Positions 7,539 to 51,958 of a DNA stretch of 64,000 bases are shown one piece after another (the first letter of the stretch is position 1; every line of letters begins with the position of its first letter). Made by a program: the position numbers and the translations under genes. Under the pieces are notes generated by a model. It did not search any database, was not told the origin of the DNA, and was given only the letters and a program-made list of their open reading frames with translations. The stretch comes from an uncultured Salinisphaerales bacterium (GTDB taxonomy: Bacteria > Pseudomonadota > Gammaproteobacteria > Nevskiales > CAJXLF01), in the NCBI GenBank assembly GCA_913055805.1, contig CAJXLF010000001.1:1-64000 (forward strand), in the 5' to 3' direction.

Positions 7539-7595
7539 ACTGTTCGCTCGCTATACTGGTGGGGCGAGCCAAAATCCAAATTGCGAGGAGTTGTC

Positions 7596-8630
7596 ATGAC
7601 GGATAGTCCCGACATCGCCGAACTGGCGGAGGAAATGGAGACACAGACGGCGCCGTCCGGCCTGGAGAAGACTGTTGGTGAGCTGATGTCGCCTGCGCCT
7701 GCGATTCTGCCGGCCAGCAGCACGGCAGCCGAAGCGCTGGCCTTCCTGGTCAAGACCAAGGATGTCTCTGACGTTACCTATATCTATGCCACCCGGGAAG
7801 AGAAGCTGGCAGGGGTGGTGGGCATGCGAGATCTGATTCTGGCCAAGCCGTCACAGACACTCGAAGACATCATGCTGCAGCAACCCTTCGCCTTTACGCG
7901 GGACACCCGCATTGGCGAAGCGATTTCCGAGGCGCTGGGCCGTCACTATCCCATGTATCCGGTGGTGGATGATGACCAGCAGGTGATCGGAGTGGTGCGT
8001 GGCTGGAAGCTGTATGAACGCATCGCCACGGAGATGAGTGGCCAGGCCGGCGCCCAGGTGGGTGTGGCGCGCGAAGAGCAGGTCACAACCGGGGTGTTCG
8101 CCGCCTTTCGCATGCGCCATCCCTGGCTGCAGGTGAATCTGCTGACAGCTTTTGCCGCTGCCTTCGTGGTGGGTATGTTCGAAGATACGATCATGCGTGT
8201 GGTGGCGCTGGCGGCTTTTCTGCCGGTGCTGGCCGGACAGAGCGGCAACACCGGTTGTCAGGCGCTGGCCATTACCCTGCGCGGTCTGACGCTGGGCAAG
8301 TTGCGTAATTATCCGATACGCAAGTTGCTGCAAAAGGAGATATTGCTCGGTGCCCTGAATGGACTGCTGGTGGGCATTGTGGCGGGTGTGGCCATGAGTG
8401 TGTACGCCAGCATGACCGGGGCTGCGCAGCCGGTCATGCTCGGGGTAGTGATTCTGGTGGCCATGGTCGGCGCCTGTGTCGGCAGTGGCATATTCGGTGT
8501 CATGGTGCCGCTTACCCTGAAGCGTTTCGGTGCGGACCCCGCCACTGCCAGCAGCATCTTCCTGACCACTTTCACCGACATTATCGGTATGGGGTTGATG
8601 CTGTTTCTGGCGACGACGCTGATTCTGTAG
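7596..8630 (+). CDS. mgtE: MgtE-type divalent cation transporter lacking the N domain
   Basis: A 344-residue protein with a CBS pair (residues about 25-145) and the five-helix MgtE channel domain (about 180-344). The selectivity motif is present in LAGQSGNTGCQALAITLRG, and FTDIIGM carries the acidic residue at the Mg site of the last helices. Full-length MgtE is near 450 residues and starts with a superhelical MgtE_N domain, which is missing here; short versions are known in proteobacteria. ATG 7596 is preferred over TTG 7581 because GCGAGGAG sits 7 bp before it. Role: Mg2+ (or Co2+) uptake across the inner membrane, gated through the CBS pair. Confidence 0.88.
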   Translation: MTDSPDIAELAEEMETQTAPSGLEKTVGELMSPAPAILPASSTAAEALAFLVKTKDVSDVTYIYATREEKLAGVVGMRDLILAKPSQTLEDIMLQQPFAFTRDTRIGEAISEALGRHYPMYPVVDDDQQVIGVVRGWKLYERIATEMSGQAGAQVGVAREEQVTTGVFAAFRMRHPWLQVNLLTAFAAAFVVGMFEDTIMRVVALAAFLPVLAGQSGNTGCQALAITLRGLTLGKLRNYPIRKLLQKEILLGALNGLLVGIVAGVAMSVYASMTGAAQPVMLGVVILVAMVGACVGSGIFGVMVPLTLKRFGADPATASSIFLTTFTDIIGMGLMLFLATTLIL

Positions 8631-14175: not shown

Positions 14176-14531
14176 CGACTTCCCCTCCCAAAGTCAGTCT
14201 CGCACCTGTATGAAAACGTATGGCCTGCAGGTATATACGGGTAGATTTTTATATATGGCCCCGTCGCGTACACAGGTTAATATTTTCTATATACGCAATA
14301 TGCCCTAATACAGCGCACCAGAGTAGGTGCAGGGCCCTTTGGGAGCTTCATCCGAACGGAGTAAGGGGGTTCGCCGCCGAACTGGCAGACTGTGCGCCAA
14401 TTCGAAAAATAACTGAAAATACATAGAAATTCTCGCCTGACTGTATTAACTCCGATAAAGTGACCGGAGTGTAAGGCTGCGGTTGAGGCGCGATTCCCAT
14501 GCCAGCTGAAAAACAGAATTCCCAAGGGGAA
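14176..14531. other. Divergent promoter region between DUF1302-B and WS/DGAT
   Basis: The 356-bp gap separates two divergent genes. It is AT-rich from 14240 to 14300 with TATATA-like stretches that could serve the minus-strand gene. Near the plus-strand gene an ACTCCG (14449-14454) and CGGAGT (14465-14470) form a small inverted repeat. Short reading frames occur here, but none shows coding features. No repeat family seen elsewhere in the window is present. Confidence 0.4.
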
Positions 14532-16115
14532 ATGATGAAACGTTTGAGTCCGATTGACGCCTCCTTCCTGTACATGGAGTCCACGCGTACGCCAATGCAC
14601 GTGGGGTCATTGCTTATTTTCCAGTTGCCGAAAAATCCGCCGGAAGATTACTTCAAGACGCTGGTCGATATGATGCGCTCGGAGCCTTTCATGCCGTCGC
14701 CGTTCGACTGCAAGCTCGCAGACACGCGGTTCTCCAGAGTGCGCCCGGCCTGGGTCAAGGCGGAGCTGGATATGGAATACCACGTGCGTCACTCGGCCCT
14801 GCCGAGGCCCGGTGGTGAGCGTGAGCTGGGCAGTCTGGTACAGCGACTGCACTCCAATCCCATGGATCTGGACCGGCCGCTGTGGGAGGCGCACCTGATC
14901 GAGGGGCTGGAAAACAACCGCTTCGCCTTCTATTTCAAGGCGCATCACTGCGCCATTGACGGTATGGGCGCCATGAACATGGTGCGCAAGTGGCTCAAGC
15001 GTGATCCCGGGGATATGTCGGCGCCGGGCGTGATGAGCTTTGCCAAACCCACGGTCAAAGCAAGCCGCAAAACCACCGAAATGATCAAGGGCGTGTTGTC
15101 CAAGGCAACATCGTCGGCCAAGGGTCTGGGCGAACTTGGCGTCAATCTGCTGGAGTTGCGCAAGGGCGACGACAGCATGATCAAGGCTTCCCTGCATACG
15201 CCGCGCAGCCTTTTCAATGCGCCGGTTTCGCAGCAGCGGCGTCTGGGTACCCAGCTGATCAAGCTGGAGCGTTTCAAGCGTTTGTCCAGGGCTCTGGATG
15301 TGACGGTGAATGACGTTACCCTGGCGGTGGTAGGCGCCACCACCCGCCGCTATCTGCTGGAACAGGGGGCGCTGCCCGGGAAGTCGCTGACGGCCTCGGT
15401 GCCGATCGGACTGGACCGCGCTGAAGGCGAGGGCGGTAATGCCGTTGCCGGGTTCGTCTGTTCACTGCATACCGACATTGATGATCCACTGGAACGCGCC
15501 CGCAGAATTCACCATGCCACGCTGCGTGCCAAGGCCGACCTGAAAAAAATGTCACGCCCGGCGCTGGATAATCTGGCTTTGAGTGGCCTGGCGCCGCTGC
15601 TGATCGGTCAGATGACCGGCACGCTGGCCAAGATGTCGCCCATGTTCAACTTCGTGGTCTCCAATGTGGTCCTGACCAAGGAGAAGCTCTATCTCATGGG
15701 CGCCGAACTGGAGGCGATGTACCCCATCTCCTTCCTGTTCGATGGTTATGCGCTGAATGTGACTGTGATCGGCTATTCGGAAAATGTGGCGATCGGCTTT
15801 GTGGGTTGCCGTGATGCCATCCCCAAGCTGCAGTCGTTGGCGGTGTATGCCGGTGAGGCGGTTACGGAGCTGGAGAAGGCGGCTGGCCTCAAGCCCCTGC
15901 CGGTAGCCAAAGCGTCGGCCAGCAAAGCCGTGACGAAGAAAACGGTAACGAAGAAACCTGTAACGAAGAAAACCGCCGTCCGCAAAGCGCCGGCGAGCAA
16001 AGCAACGCCCAAGGCGACGGCGGGTAAACCAGCGACCAGAAAACCGGCAGGCAAGTCCGCGGTCAGGAAAACTTCAGCACCCAAACGTAAAGTAGTGGCG
16101 GTGAGAAAGAAGTAG
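14532..16115 (+). CDS. Wax ester synthase/diacylglycerol acyltransferase with basic tail
   Basis: A 527-residue WS/DGAT that joins acyl-CoA to alcohols or diacylglycerol to make storage lipid. The catalytic HHxxxDG motif is HHCAIDG (138-144); PLWEAHLIEGL and NDVTLAVVG are the other family blocks. The usual SNVPGP motif is changed to SNVVLT. The last 69 residues form a low-complexity K/A/T/R tail with KKTV, KKPV, KKTAVRKA and PAGK repeats like histone H1 or AlgP, absent from standard WS/DGAT enzymes of about 450-470 residues. ATG 14532 or 14535 follows AAGGGGA; the reading frame extends upstream without a better start. Confidence 0.92.
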   Translation: MMKRLSPIDASFLYMESTRTPMHVGSLLIFQLPKNPPEDYFKTLVDMMRSEPFMPSPFDCKLADTRFSRVRPAWVKAELDMEYHVRHSALPRPGGERELGSLVQRLHSNPMDLDRPLWEAHLIEGLENNRFAFYFKAHHCAIDGMGAMNMVRKWLKRDPGDMSAPGVMSFAKPTVKASRKTTEMIKGVLSKATSSAKGLGELGVNLLELRKGDDSMIKASLHTPRSLFNAPVSQQRRLGTQLIKLERFKRLSRALDVTVNDVTLAVVGATTRRYLLEQGALPGKSLTASVPIGLDRAEGEGGNAVAGFVCSLHTDIDDPLERARRIHHATLRAKADLKKMSRPALDNLALSGLAPLLIGQMTGTLAKMSPMFNFVVSNVVLTKEKLYLMGAELEAMYPISFLFDGYALNVTVIGYSENVAIGFVGCRDAIPKLQSLAVYAGEAVTELEKAAGLKPLPVAKASASKAVTKKTVTKKPVTKKTAVRKAPASKATPKATAGKPATRKPAGKSAVRKTSAPKRKVVAVRKK

Positions 16116-46195: not shown

Positions 46196-46732
46196 ATGGC
46201 GATGTCCTGGGGAATAACAATCGCTTTACTGGCCGCGCTGGTCTATCTGATCTGGCTGTACAACCGTCTGGTGCATGATAGCAATACGGTGTTGGCCGCC
46301 TGGAGTGACATTGACGTGCAGTTGAAGCGCAGGCACGACCTGATTCCGAAGCTGGTGGAAGCCGTCAGGGCCTATGCGGATTACGAGCAGGCGACTTTCA
46401 GCCGGGTCACCGAATTGCGTCGCAGCAGCGCAATGGCCAGGGCTTCCTCGCGGTCTGCAGGAGAGATTGGACAACTGGAACAACGGCTTGGTGATGCCAT
46501 GCAGGGTTTGCTGGCCATTGCCGAGGCTTATCCTGACCTCAAGACTTCCGAGCAGTTTACCGGTCTGCAAGACGAGATCTCCGAAGTTGAGCAGGCCATC
46601 CAGTATGCGCGCCGTTATTACAACGGTGCGGTCAAGGCGTATAACGTCATGGTCGAGTCCTTCCCCAGTAATCTGGTGGCCGGCGTGTTTCGTTTCCGCC
46701 CGGCCGAGTACTTCGATTGGGAACCCGCGTGA
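46196..46732 (+). CDS. lemA: LemA family protein
   Basis: A 178-residue LemA protein: one N-terminal membrane anchor (ITIALLAALVYLIWLYNRLV) and a long helical body with the family core SDIDVQLKRRHDLIPKLVEAV and YYNGAVKAYNVMVESFPSNLVA. Function remains unclear, though LemA is commonly encoded with TPM or DUF2207 proteins, as here. GTAGAAG precedes the ATG. The stop overlaps the GTG start of the next gene (GTGA). Confidence 0.95.
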   Translation: MAMSWGITIALLAALVYLIWLYNRLVHDSNTVLAAWSDIDVQLKRRHDLIPKLVEAVRAYADYEQATFSRVTELRRSSAMARASSRSAGEIGQLEQRLGDAMQGLLAIAEAYPDLKTSEQFTGLQDEISEVEQAIQYARRYYNGAVKAYNVMVESFPSNLVAGVFRFRPAEYFDWEPA

Positions 46733-48612
46733 GAAAGATTTTTCTGATCCTGTTGCTGGCCTGGCCGCTGGCGGGTCAGGCCGATGAGCGCATTCTGTCT
46801 TTCGACAGTGAAATCGTCGTGCATGCCGATGGTTCACAGACCGTAACCGAGACCATACGTGTAAGGGCCGAGGGCAAGAAGATAAAGCGCGGCATTTACC
46901 GTGATTTTCCCACCACTTATAAAGGTCATGGCCGGCAATACAAGGTCGACTTCCAGGTCGTGGAGGTGCTCAGGGATGGCGGCAAGGAGGGCTGGCATAC
47001 CCAGCGCCTTTCCAACGGTATCCGGGTTTATATGGGGCGCAAGAATGTGTTGCTTGAGCCGGGGGACTACAGCTACCGTCTGACATACATTACGGATCGT
47101 CAGTTGGGGTTCTTTGATGAGCATGACGAGTTGTACTGGAATGTCACCGGCAATGGCTGGGATTTCGCCATAGACCGGGTCAGCGCAAGCCTGTTTTTGC
47201 CGCCGGCGGTGCCACTGACGCAAGTGAGGCCGATGGGCTATACCGGCAAGCAGGGCAGCCGCGGGCAGGATTATCGCGCCGGCCGGACCGATGCGGCGAT
47301 GGTGTACGAGACGCTGCGGCCACTGGGTCCCCGCGAGGGCCTGACCATTGTGGCGAGCTGGCCGAAGGGCTTCATACGCGAGCCCGCCTGGCAGGACGAA
47401 CTGGCCTGGCGCTGGCGTGACGAGCCCGGCATTTTCATTGTCTGGGGCGGGGCGCTGTTACTGCTGTTTTATTACTGGCTTGCCTGGTTGCGGGTCGGGC
47501 GCGATCCGGCTGCGGGTGTCATCGTGCCTGAATATGAACCTCCCGAGGGTTATTCGCCGGCTGCCGTGCGCCTGATCTACCGCATGGGTTACGACAACAA
47601 GATTGCTTCTGCGGCGTTGGTGGGCCTGGCAGTAAAGGGTGCGGTTACGCTCGAAGAGAATGATTCGGTCTATACCGTGAAACCCACGGGCGAAAGCCAG
47701 GCAGCGCTGGGCGAAGACGAGGCCACCTTGCTGGCCGGTATCGGCGCTTTGGGCATGACTTTCAGCAAGAGCCGGCATGAAAGGATTCGCCAGCTGCTCA
47801 AGTCGCATCGCGAAAAGCTGGACGATATGTATCGCAAACGCTACTACTACGCGAATCGCGGCTGGGTGATTCCGGGTTGGGTCCTGTCGGTGCTGGTGCT
47901 GGCCGTGGCAGGCTGGCAGTCAATCAACAGTTATGGTCCCGAAGCCCTGTTCTTTCTGTTCATGGCGGCGTTCTGTATCGGTTTCACGAGCCCGTTCCTG
48001 GTACAGCTGTGGCGTATGCGTCACCGCTACCACCGGGGCGTCGGTGACTGGCTGCGGTTGGTCATGACCGCTACGCCGGCCTTCTTTCTTATCGGCATGC
48101 TCAATGTCAGTGATCTGGCAGGCTTTCTTGGCGTCGTGCCCTGGCAGCTGCTGGCCGGCATGATCGCGATTATTCTGATTAATCTGCTGTATCACTATCT
48201 GATCAAGGCGCCGACGTTGCGAGGGCGCCGCCTTCTGGACCGGATCGAGGGCTTCAAGCGTTATCTCACCCTGGCTGAAGGCGATGAACTGAAGCTGCGT
48301 TATGCCAGTGCCGTGACGCCCGAGAAATTCGAGGCTTGTCTGCCCTACGCCATTGCCCTGGATGTGGAGACGGAATGGGCGGACCGCTTTGCCGCTGATC
48401 TACGCGAGGCGGGCAAAGATCCTTCAAATTATCGTAGCCGCTGGTATAGCGGCTCGGATTTTCGCGGAGTACGCGGGCTCTCCAGCTCCGTGGGCAGTGC
48501 CCTGGCCAGTTCCGTGGCTTCCGCCAGTACGCCCCCGGGTTCTTCTTCTGGCGGCGGGGGTGGTGGTTTCTCCGGCGGCGGCGGCGGAGGTGGCGGCGGC
48601 GGCGGCTGGTAA
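46729..48612 (+). CDS. DUF2207 membrane protein with glycine-rich tail
   Basis: A 627-residue protein: signal peptide (MRKIFLILLLAWPLAGQA), an extracytoplasmic DUF2207 domain (ERILSFDSEIVVHADGSQTVTETI, KRGIYRDFPT), membrane spans near residues 236-256, 388-408, 412-432 and 450-495, a cytoplasmic region, and a C-terminal run of glycines with S, F and a final W. Such GGGGFSGGG tails are typical of the family. The GTG start at 46729 overlaps the lemA stop, so the two are co-translated. Function is not known; the lemA partnership suggests an envelope role. Confidence 0.9.
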   Translation: MRKIFLILLLAWPLAGQADERILSFDSEIVVHADGSQTVTETIRVRAEGKKIKRGIYRDFPTTYKGHGRQYKVDFQVVEVLRDGGKEGWHTQRLSNGIRVYMGRKNVLLEPGDYSYRLTYITDRQLGFFDEHDELYWNVTGNGWDFAIDRVSASLFLPPAVPLTQVRPMGYTGKQGSRGQDYRAGRTDAAMVYETLRPLGPREGLTIVASWPKGFIREPAWQDELAWRWRDEPGIFIVWGGALLLLFYYWLAWLRVGRDPAAGVIVPEYEPPEGYSPAAVRLIYRMGYDNKIASAALVGLAVKGAVTLEENDSVYTVKPTGESQAALGEDEATLLAGIGALGMTFSKSRHERIRQLLKSHREKLDDMYRKRYYYANRGWVIPGWVLSVLVLAVAGWQSINSYGPEALFFLFMAAFCIGFTSPFLVQLWRMRHRYHRGVGDWLRLVMTATPAFFLIGMLNVSDLAGFLGVVPWQLLAGMIAIILINLLYHYLIKAPTLRGRRLLDRIEGFKRYLTLAEGDELKLRYASAVTPEKFEACLPYAIALDVETEWADRFAADLREAGKDPSNYRSRWYSGSDFRGVRGLSSSVGSALASSVASASTPPGSSSGGGGGGFSGGGGGGGGGGGW

Positions 48613-49138: not shown

Positions 49139-49354
49139 ATGACGCAATCACTGGAACAGGCCCTGGGTCTCGAGCCCGGGACACTGGCATTTCTGGAATA
49201 TTTTTCTGAAGAGGAGCAGGCGCGGTTGCTGTCCTTGTTCGAGACGGCGCAGACCGGGCAGCGCCAGCGGGTGGACGAGGCGATTGAGTCAGGCCTTCAG
49301 ATTGTCCCCGGCTTTTTGCGCAAGACCCTGCGCAAGATACTGGGTAGTCGATGA
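49139..49354 (+). CDS. Small helical protein of unknown function
   Basis: A 71-residue, charged, wholly helical-looking protein (LEQALGLEPGTLAFLEYF, EEEQARLLSLFETAQTG). GGGAG lies 7 bp before the ATG. It ends 9 bp before the helical-repeat protein gene, so the two are probably translated together and may form a complex. No family recognised. Confidence 0.65.
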   Translation: MTQSLEQALGLEPGTLAFLEYFSEEEQARLLSLFETAQTGQRQRVDEAIESGLQIVPGFLRKTLRKILGSR

Positions 49355-49363
49355 GGGTTGCGC

Positions 49364-50413
49364 ATGCAGGATTTTGATACTCAGGCCGAGCTGATCAAGC
49401 TTGGGCGCTTGCTGAATGCTGCCGAGCAGGATATCGCTTTTCTGGCCGAAGCACGGGCGCAGGATTTGCGGCTGCTGCGCAAGGCCATGAGCCACAGCCT
49501 GTTTAACCAGGGCCGCAAGGTATTTCATAAAATGGCCATGGGCGCGAAGCTGCTGCCACACAAACTGCTCGTGCGGACTACGGCCATTTACGGTCCGGTG
49601 CTGTGCGCGCGCGTGGCCAGCGAAATGGATCCGGAGCGGGCGATTGCTCTGGCCGTGAGCCTGGAAACGGAGTTTCTGGCCGATGTGAGCATCGCTCTGG
49701 ACCCGGAAAGTACCCGTGACATTATCCGCGGCATTCCGGTGGAGCAGGTGATTGCGGTAGCCCACCAGCTGCTGGCCCGTGACGATCACATCACCATGGC
49801 CCGTTTTGTGGATTCATTGAGTGATGAGGTGTTGTCGCAGACCCTGGACTCTATCGATGACGATGCCGCGTTGCTGCATATCGGCTTCTTTGTTGAAGAC
49901 AAGGAGCACCTCAACAAGGCTATCGTACATGTCAGCGATGAGCGTTTGGCCGGCATGGTTCAGGTCTGTGAAGCCCAGGGGCTGTGGGCCGAAATTCTGT
50001 CTCTGATGGAGCATATGGATCAGCCGACGCGCATGCGCCTGGCCAATGTTGCCGGGCAGCAGGACGAAAAGATTCACTTATCCCTGCTCAAGGCTATCGA
50101 GGCTCAGGACATGTGGCCGCTGGTGCTGGATATGGTGGATGCCATGGACGAGCAATACCGGCCAGCCATCGCCAATCTGGCCGCCGAGCAGGATGATGCC
50201 TTGCTGATCCGCTTGTTCGAAGTGGCCAAGTCCTATGAAATGTGGCCGCTGGTGCTCAAGGTGCTGGCAGCCATGAGTGAGCAGCACCAGCAACACATGG
50301 CGCATCTGGCCCACAAAGTGGGCGAAAATCCGGAGCAGCGGCGCCTGCTGGCCAAGAAGCTGGGACTTCTCGATGCCCTGAATCCGTTTCTGGAGACCTA
50401 CGAAGAGGCCTGA
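49364..50413 (+). CDS. Helical-repeat protein with 43-residue repeats, function unknown
   Basis: A 349-residue soluble protein. Its second half has three consecutive 43-residue repeats, marked by LWAEILSLMEHM, MWPLVLDMVDAM and MWPLVLKVLAAM, each followed by (R/Q)xxxANxA and an acidic helix (QDEKIHLSLLK, QDDALLIRLFE). The first half (RGIPVEQVIAVAHQLLARDD, TMARFVDSLSDEVL) recalls the superhelical MgtE_N-type repeats. It would form a solenoid, probably for protein binding. ATG 49364 follows GAGGG by 7 bp. It sits between a tiny helical protein and a Na/Pi symporter gene. Confidence 0.75.
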   Translation: MQDFDTQAELIKLGRLLNAAEQDIAFLAEARAQDLRLLRKAMSHSLFNQGRKVFHKMAMGAKLLPHKLLVRTTAIYGPVLCARVASEMDPERAIALAVSLETEFLADVSIALDPESTRDIIRGIPVEQVIAVAHQLLARDDHITMARFVDSLSDEVLSQTLDSIDDDAALLHIGFFVEDKEHLNKAIVHVSDERLAGMVQVCEAQGLWAEILSLMEHMDQPTRMRLANVAGQQDEKIHLSLLKAIEAQDMWPLVLDMVDAMDEQYRPAIANLAAEQDDALLIRLFEVAKSYEMWPLVLKVLAAMSEQHQQHMAHLAHKVGENPEQRRLLAKKLGLLDALNPFLETYEEA

Positions 50414-50492
50414 GGGAATTCGGGGGCCTTCATGCGGACGTAACAATACGGGGGTAAGACTGGACACTCTTTATTACATGGAAGTGTCCGTC

Positions 50493-51641
50493 ATGAATGA
50501 GCAAGTACAAGCGCGCCCGGACAGTCAGTCCGCGGCTGCTAGTCCTGCCACCTGGCTTGCCATTGTTGCCCTGATCTACCTTATTCTGCTGGCCGTTGGA
50601 ATGATTGGCAGCGGGTTCAAGACAGCGACCGGCGGCCATGCCGAGCAGTTGTTCGAATTCGCCTCCAATCCGTTTCTGGCATTGATGATCGGCACCATGT
50701 GTACGGCGTTGATCCAGTCCTCCAGCACGGTGACCTCGATTATCGTGGGACTTGTCGCTGGTGGTCTGCCAGTGGCTACGGCGGTCCCCATGATCATGGG
50801 CGCCAATATTGGTACCACCATCACGAATACCCTGGTCAGCCTGGGCCATGTGCGTAACAAGGAAGAGTTCAGGCGAGCCTTTTCTGCGGCCACAGTGCAT
50901 GACTTCTTCAATCTCATCAGTGTGCTGATTTTCCTGCCGTTGGAGATCATGTTCGGATTCCTCGAGAAGGCAGGCGGCTGGTTGGCCGGCTTGATGGTGG
51001 GTGGAGACTCCATGAGCATGAAGGGTCTGAATTTCATCAAGCCGATTACCAAGCCGGTGATTGGCGCCTTCAAGGATCTGGTGGATTTCCTGCCCGGCGT
51101 GTTTCCGGGGGTGGCCATGATCATTATCGGCATCGCCATAATCTTTCTGGCCATTACCCTGATCGGGCGCTTGCTGAAAATGGTCATGGTGGGGCGTGCC
51201 AAGAAAATTCTGCATGCCAGTATCGGCCGTGGGCCGCTCAGCGGTATCGGGTCCGGCACGGTGGTCACGGTGCTGGTGCAGTCTTCCTCCACCACCACAT
51301 CGCTGATGGTGCCTCTGGTAGGCTCCGGTGTTTTCCGCACCCGCGATATCTATCCCTTCACGCTGGGCGCCAACATCGGCACCTGTATTACAGCATTGTT
51401 GGCGGCGACGGCGATCTCGGGACCAACGGCGGTCTTTGCCCTGCAGATCGCCCTGGTGCACCTGTGCTACAACGTGCTGGGTGTGGTCGTGATCTACGGC
51501 ATCCCGCTGTTACGCGAAATACCGCTGCGCATGGCTGACTGGATGGCCAATATCGCCAGCGAGCAGAAACTCTATGCCTTGAGCTATATCCTGGGTGTGT
51601 TCTTTGTCATACCCGGTGCACTCGTTTTCGTGGGGAACTAG
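50493..51641 (+). CDS. Na+/phosphate symporter family protein
   Basis: A 382-residue transporter of the NptA/SLC34 (Na/Pi cotransporter II) family. The two inverted halves each contain the signature QSSST: TALIQSSSTVTSIIVGLVAGG and VLVQSSSTTTSLMVPLVGSG, each followed by GANIGT. About eight membrane spans. It moves phosphate with sodium across the inner membrane; in bacteria some act in efflux. ATG 50493 follows GGAAGTG; ATG 50478 in frame is possible. The next small gene starts 2 bp after its stop. Confidence 0.93.
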   Translation: MNEQVQARPDSQSAAASPATWLAIVALIYLILLAVGMIGSGFKTATGGHAEQLFEFASNPFLALMIGTMCTALIQSSSTVTSIIVGLVAGGLPVATAVPMIMGANIGTTITNTLVSLGHVRNKEEFRRAFSAATVHDFFNLISVLIFLPLEIMFGFLEKAGGWLAGLMVGGDSMSMKGLNFIKPITKPVIGAFKDLVDFLPGVFPGVAMIIIGIAIIFLAITLIGRLLKMVMVGRAKKILHASIGRGPLSGIGSGTVVTVLVQSSSTTTSLMVPLVGSGVFRTRDIYPFTLGANIGTCITALLAATAISGPTAVFALQIALVHLCYNVLGVVVIYGIPLLREIPLRMADWMANIASEQKLYALSYILGVFFVIPGALVFVGN

Positions 51642-51643
51642 CA

Positions 51644-51904
51644 ATGAATATTCAGCAAGACACCCTGGACGCCAAGATCGACGAAATGCGCGAGTTGCTG
51701 GCGCAACTGGAGCGTGCGGCCGGGGCCGCGCGCGAAGACCGGCAGCACGACGAGATCGAGCGTCTGGAAGCACATCTGGAAAACGCCGAATTGTCGCTGG
51801 ACAAGCTCGGTGATTTTCGTGAGGACATTCTGGATGAATTCCATGAAGTGCTGGAGCGTTTGCGCGAGCTGCTGCAGCGATTGCTGGGGCAGCAGGCGCA
51901 TTAG
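51644..51904 (+). CDS. Small coiled-coil protein
   Basis: An 86-residue highly charged protein with heptad patterns over nearly all its length (LDAKIDEMRELLAQLERA and IERLEAHLENAELSLDKL, then FHEVLERLRELLQRLLG). It lies 2 bp after the Na/Pi symporter gene and just before a strong terminator, so it is coexpressed. PhoU-like regulators often accompany Na/Pi transporters; this is not PhoU but may play a similar regulatory part, which is inference only. Confidence 0.75.
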   Translation: MNIQQDTLDAKIDEMRELLAQLERAAGAAREDRQHDEIERLEAHLENAELSLDKLGDFREDILDEFHEVLERLRELLQRLLGQQAH

Positions 51905-51924: not shown

Positions 51925-51958
51925 AAAAAAAGGCCGCCCATCGGGCGGCCTTTTTGCG
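51925..51958. terminator. Bidirectional intrinsic terminator
   Basis: GGCCGCCC (51932-51939) and GGGCGGCC (51943-51950) form a perfect 8-bp stem with a 3-base loop, followed by five Ts and preceded by seven As. It serves the plus-strand phosphate-transport operon and the convergent pntB gene, which ends 11 bp beyond. Confidence 0.92.

Follow-up and report, generated by a model that had tools for sequence, protein, structure and literature searches.

P71 and SOL, encoded side by side, are an unnamed pair that is widely kept in one bacterial order. In 74 of 80 loci overall, SOL is immediately preceded by a P71-like gene, in keeping with the earlier note on this DNA, which had placed the 71-aa protein with the solenoid, and it is near certain that the two constitute one conserved module. 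Within the window (the whole stretch of 64,000 nucleotides analyzed), the pair belongs to a run of four ORFs that consists of two unrelated modules, P71 plus SOL and a Na/Pi symporter plus CC86. The features are as follows.

49139-49354, plus strand: P71, 71 aa, small helical partner (ORF list)
49364-50413, plus strand: SOL, predicted cytosolic-type alpha-solenoid, from its likely ATG start (ORF list, start conservation, and structure model)
49358-50413, plus strand: longer ORF version of SOL, 351 aa, from the possible TTG start at 49358 (ORF list)
49382-49600, plus strand: SOL residues 9-81, P71-like N-terminal segment (hhalign and HMM test)
49511-49855, plus strand: SOL residues 52-166, MgtE_N/FliG-middle-like domain (VIA and PF03448)
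49982-50368, plus strand: three 43-residue [LM]W repeats of SOL (motif spacing; helices in the model)
50478-51641, plus strand: Na/Pi symporter (PF02690), 387 aa, separate module (Pfam)
51644-51904, plus strand: CC86, 86-aa coiled-coil protein accompanying the symporter (similar small ORF beside close symporters)
51925-51955, no strand: bidirectional terminator between CC86 and convergent minus-strand genes (read by eye)

All four ORFs lie on the plus strand and end at a terminator, as originally described. The terminator, GGCCGCCC-ATC-GGGCGGCC with A and T runs, is visible by eye and is common to the convergent minus-strand genes; it is absent from the output of a simple terminator scan. Upstream of P71-SOL, LemA-family and DUF2207 genes overlap each other at 46196-48612.

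Pairing and distribution of P71 and SOL

Wide DNA was fetched for 60 loci, of which 59 are SOL loci from other genomes and one is the remote paralogue of the host (L096). These represent part of the order-wide SOL matches, and one locus added from a genome-collection scan (L036) brought the number to 61. Of the initial set of 62 loci, which includes the window, 61 have a P71-like gene immediately before SOL; L096 does not, and its alignment with SOL begins only near residue 60. The overall set of 80 adds L193, L194, L195, L196-L206, and L162-L165 to these 62. P71 is present at L163 (outside the order), at L193 (genome G516), and at L196-L206. Of the six loci lacking P71, three encode a SOL without the N-terminal segment (L096/L207, L194, and L195) and three are cut at a contig end, where an upstream P71 cannot be judged (L162, L164, and L165). 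As read by eye, the P71-less, N-terminally shorter SOL paralogue at L207:872-3337 (contig C8 of G000) sits directly behind an HDOD-like gene.

The P71 and SOL genes overlap by 4 bases in 29/60 loci and by 1 base in 8/60 (together, 37/60), a gene arrangement that suggests coupled translation. In the window, ATG 49364 is the most likely start of SOL, better than TTG 49358, because its methionine is nearly invariant across 52 SOL relatives. Inspection by eye places a GAGGG 6 bases 5' of this ATG and finds the P71 stop codon overlapping the likely SOL ribosome site.

SOL relatives occur in 63 of the 85 genomes of the order and are missing from the other 22. Eight of 369 genomes in a class sample match SOL, seven of them at an E value of ≤1e-10. 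A phylum sample likewise yielded 8 matching genomes (8/398), with only G000 and G516 matching over the full length; G622 and G692 have partial matches and contain neither P71 nor a wax ester synthase/DGAT (WS/DGAT), and the four further matches have E values of about 1e-4 to 6e-4. The genome-collection scan with the single SOL protein retrieved only one relative, from an Alcanivoracaceae MAG (33%). By tblastn, SOL matched none of 72,556 plasmid records and none of 50,697 phage records, and neither PHROG nor PADLOC (anti-phage defense models) matched P71 or SOL; a plasmid- or phage-borne toxin-antitoxin pair was rejected on these results. Among the papers listed by literature searches, none was recognizable as a description of the P71-SOL pair.

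Fold of SOL and its P71-like cap

SOL is predicted to be a soluble alpha-solenoid composed of an N-terminal cap, an armadillo domain of the MgtE_N/FliG-middle type, and a variable number of 43-residue repeats. The structure model is all helical (pLDDT 92.1, pTM 0.87). The three 43-residue repeats reported earlier were recovered, with the motifs LWAEIL, MWPLVL, and MWPLVL starting at residues 209, 252, and 295, a spacing of exactly 43. The number of C-terminal repeats varies: the window SOL has 3, and an 845-aa relative (L059:6706-9240, minus strand) has 13, with 12 at exact 43-aa spacing. These counts are taken from listed motif positions; a regular expression undercounts (1 for the window SOL).

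In VIA, the top matches of SOL residues 52-166 included FliG MC (3ajc; Z 12.1 over 100 residues) and MgtE N (2yvy; Z 11.6, rmsd 3.1, 113 residues aligned), with a second MgtE N structure (8gps) at Z 10.5; lower rows contained PUF and importin (Z ≤ 9.7, rmsd mostly 5-8), and among helical repeat proteins, Z values below about 13 can be widespread. Despite this caveat, an MgtE_N-like fold is favored because PF03448 provides independent support, matching 35/52 SOL relatives at an E value of ≤0.01. On the window SOL, this match covers residues 83-170 and stays below the gathering cutoff (E = 6e-4; 20.7 versus 25.9 bits), which the paralogue L096 exceeds (32.6 bits). The resemblance of the solenoid's first half to MgtE_N, remarked on in the earlier note, thus holds. 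Apart from this weak hit, Pfam gave only one chance match on SOL (0.08) and no PF01769. Sequence profile searches of the PDB led from SOL mainly to designed repeat proteins and from P71 to nothing better than an E value of 0.019. By hydropathy, SOL is borderline (27/62 above 1.6), a result that the buried helices of a solenoid can give.

Residues 52-166 would share their fold, with a weak sequence match, with the cytosolic gate of MgtE Mg2+ channels. In contrast to MgtE, SOL has no Pfam CBS or membrane domain, carries the extra 43-aa repeats and the P71 partner, and is not encoded near MgtE. The armadillo-like fold is equally common to SOL and the FliG middle domain, and FliG MC being the best structural match could place SOL in a motor or ring assembly, acting in the manner of FliG or MotE through this domain. 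We regard such a role as highly improbable: MgtE N scores equally well in VIA, no FliG Pfam domain was found in SOL at an E value of ≤1, and no flagellar family is among the 25 listed neighbor families. It is also improbable that SOL is a PUF-like, sequence-specific nucleic acid-binding repeat protein with P71 as its co-regulator. Modular repeats of variable number would suit this function, and PUF domains do occur among the Foldseek/VIA rows (Z 9.7, rmsd 7.3), but these scores lie in the range common for helical repeats, and Foldseek against the PDB returned nothing for SOL at an E value of ≤0.001.

When P71 and SOL were aligned jointly, all 44 P71 rows landed on the SOL N terminus, which prompted a test of similarity between P71 and the SOL cap. 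The P71 HMM matched the first 110 aa of SOL in 47/62 sequences at an E value of <0.01 (3e-7 for the strongest match), the rest of SOL in 2/62 at the same threshold, and none of 1,240 shuffled SOL N termini. P71 and the N-terminal ∼80 residues of SOL likely share descent, which we do not consider proven because the hhalign match (SOL residues 9-81) has an E value of 1.6e-4 but a probability of only 51%, and BLASTP of the window P71 against the window SOL found nothing. P71 resembles the cap and is absent where SOL lacks that segment, which suggests that the SOL N-terminal segment is the partner of P71 and that the two interact. A physical P71-SOL complex is likely.

In a fused P71-SOL model (pLDDT 87.6, pTM 0.81), P71 residues 1-45 were predicted well and the conserved P71 tail poorly (pLDDT below 60). 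The C terminus of P71 is cationic and hydrophobic (VPGFLRKTLRKIL), with a mean net charge of +3.3 across 57 sequences, and hydropathy found no transmembrane-like stretch in P71 (0/61 above 1.6). Pfam gave nothing significant on P71; HTH_68 was below its cutoff, matched only 1/51 relatives, and was taken as a chance hit.

The Na/Pi symporter and CC86

The symporter matches PF02690 with an E value of 1.1e-34 (119.8 bits versus a cutoff of 29.1). A symporter match was found at 0/61 other SOL loci, and 53 of the 63 SOL-bearing genomes have none at all. Across the order, 10/85 genomes match the symporter, five of them closely (the host, G000, and G060, G062, G064, and G065). In the four genomes other than the host, the close symporter lies either some 100 kb from SOL or on a separate contig, and in three of these four a CC86-like ORF comes after it. 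Because the symporter sits away from SOL elsewhere and is followed by a CC86-like ORF, the two are, judging by gene order, a two-gene module of their own that lies downstream of SOL here by local accident. CC86 could act in the cytosol to regulate the symporter.

These distributions bear on the proposal of the earlier note that the solenoid serves the symporter or the short MgtE of the window as a separate module for gating or scaffolding. The adjacency of the genes on one strand and the MgtE_N-like fold of SOL speak for it, and the MgtE of the window does lack MgtE_N, as had been observed: its ORF (7581-8630) is membrane-only, with PF01769 at 8220-8606 and no match to PF03448. However, a survey of neighborhoods, which that note had suggested, finds the homologues of the solenoid away from the phosphate transporter. 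The lack of symporters at other SOL loci, the separate location of the close symporter in four genomes, the tendency of CC86 to travel with the symporter, and the many SOL genomes without a symporter match all count against a shared module, which was ruled out on neighborhood and to which we assign very little probability. The short MgtE is 41 kb from SOL, and two full MgtE proteins are encoded elsewhere in the host genome. For the description of the solenoid as "tied to" the symporter, adjacency in the window is the sole support. On this evidence, P71-SOL is not part of a magnesium or phosphate transporter.

Gene neighborhoods and candidate role

Neighbor counts were based on a second gene caller, Pfam, and tblastn. 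The Pfam comparison covered the nearest 2+2 genes of 37/60 SOL loci (145 genes) and of 37/55 control loci (148 genes), the controls being random loci of the same genomes; a family missing from the control top 25 occurs there at most once. By this measure, DUF1302 (9 genes), acyl-CoA dehydrogenase (7), LolA-like (7), DUF1329 (6), and SDR (6) each compared with at most 1 in the controls, and MMPL with 2 (6 versus 2); ACBP accounted for 3 neighbors at SOL loci. Gene-level enrichment is modest, with P values (control taken as 1) of 0.009 for DUF1302 and 0.03 to 0.13 for the other families tested, among them DUF1329 (0.057) and MMPL (0.13). Counted by locus, tblastn with queries drawn from SOL loci, and thus biased toward them, retrieved DUF1302 at 24/59 SOL versus 4/55 control loci, DUF1329 at 19/59 versus 2/55, ACAD at 22/59 versus 5/55, acyl-CoA ligase at 11/59 versus 1/55, and DUF445 at 10/59 (in 6 genera) versus 0/55. 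SDR (0/59 versus 0/55) and enoyl-CoA hydratase (3/59 versus 1/55) showed no enrichment by locus.

Export clusters of DUF1302, DUF1329, YCF48-like, and MMPL proteins (AmeABCD; PP_0765, PP_0766, PP_2018, and PP_2019) are thus a frequent neighbor of P71-SOL. AmeA/AmeB (DUF1302/DUF1329) act with an RND pump in monoterpene tolerance by efflux (PMC6394551), and PP_0765/PP_0766 are required for growth on Tween20 and were proposed to form a substrate transport system (PMC10866462). A P71-SOL-like pair goes unmentioned in the available text of these two papers. P71-SOL also occurs without them. DUF1302 is dispensable as a companion, being absent from 7 of the 8 SOL genomes of genus g21, and in the window no lipid gene is directly beside SOL.

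We propose that P71-SOL is a two-protein scaffold for lipid/acyl-CoA or hydrophobic-substrate metabolism, a role for and against which the case is evenly poised; the chances of a lipid role as such are about even. P71 would bind the N-terminal segment of SOL, serving as a pseudo-dimer partner or an additional cap, its cationic hydrophobic tail would face a membrane or lipid surface, and the solenoid would hold client enzymes or transport parts, most likely from acyl-CoA, fatty acid, or other hydrophobic-substrate metabolism. A more detailed version, which we advance as speculative, has the pair scaffold neutral-lipid bodies or acyl-CoA/hydrophobic-substrate enzyme assemblies; P71 would be an escaped copy of the cap that serves as the lipid-surface anchor and sets assembly, and repeat number would tune the clients. 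Few organizing proteins are known for hydrophobic-substrate handling in lipid-storing and hydrocarbon-using bacteria. P71-SOL is a defined, easily deleted candidate, kept in three quarters of the order's genomes and in multiple copies in some, which joins a solenoid of adjustable length to a partner probably related to its own N-terminal cap. It may also present an MgtE_N-type domain at work away from magnesium channels.

A narrower alternative is that P71-SOL coats or organizes wax ester/triacylglycerol inclusions as a lipid droplet scaffold, with a putative localization to the inclusions. The cationic hydrophobic P71 tail is compatible with this function, as is co-occurrence with WS/DGAT, which was found in 6/7 SOL genomes of the class sample (E ≤ 1e-10) versus 22/369 overall (P = 1.5e-7) and, outside the order, in 3/4 SOL genomes (P = 4e-4; by genus, 2/3, P = 0.007), a test weakened by related genomes and common lifestyle. 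G516 has both SOL and WS/DGAT. Nevertheless, we consider an inclusion scaffold unlikely: a common lifestyle accounts equally well for the co-occurrence, G292 has SOL without WS/DGAT, and 20 of the 22 SOL-less genomes of the order have WS/DGAT, which at 83/85 genomes is near-universal there and so uninformative within the order. No SOL locus (0/60) has WS/DGAT as a neighbor, and it was rejected as an operon partner on that count.

The window itself encodes a wax ester synthase/DGAT at 14499-16115 (PF03007, E = 3e-72). Because the genome contains nine WS/DGAT matches, the host probably stores neutral lipid.
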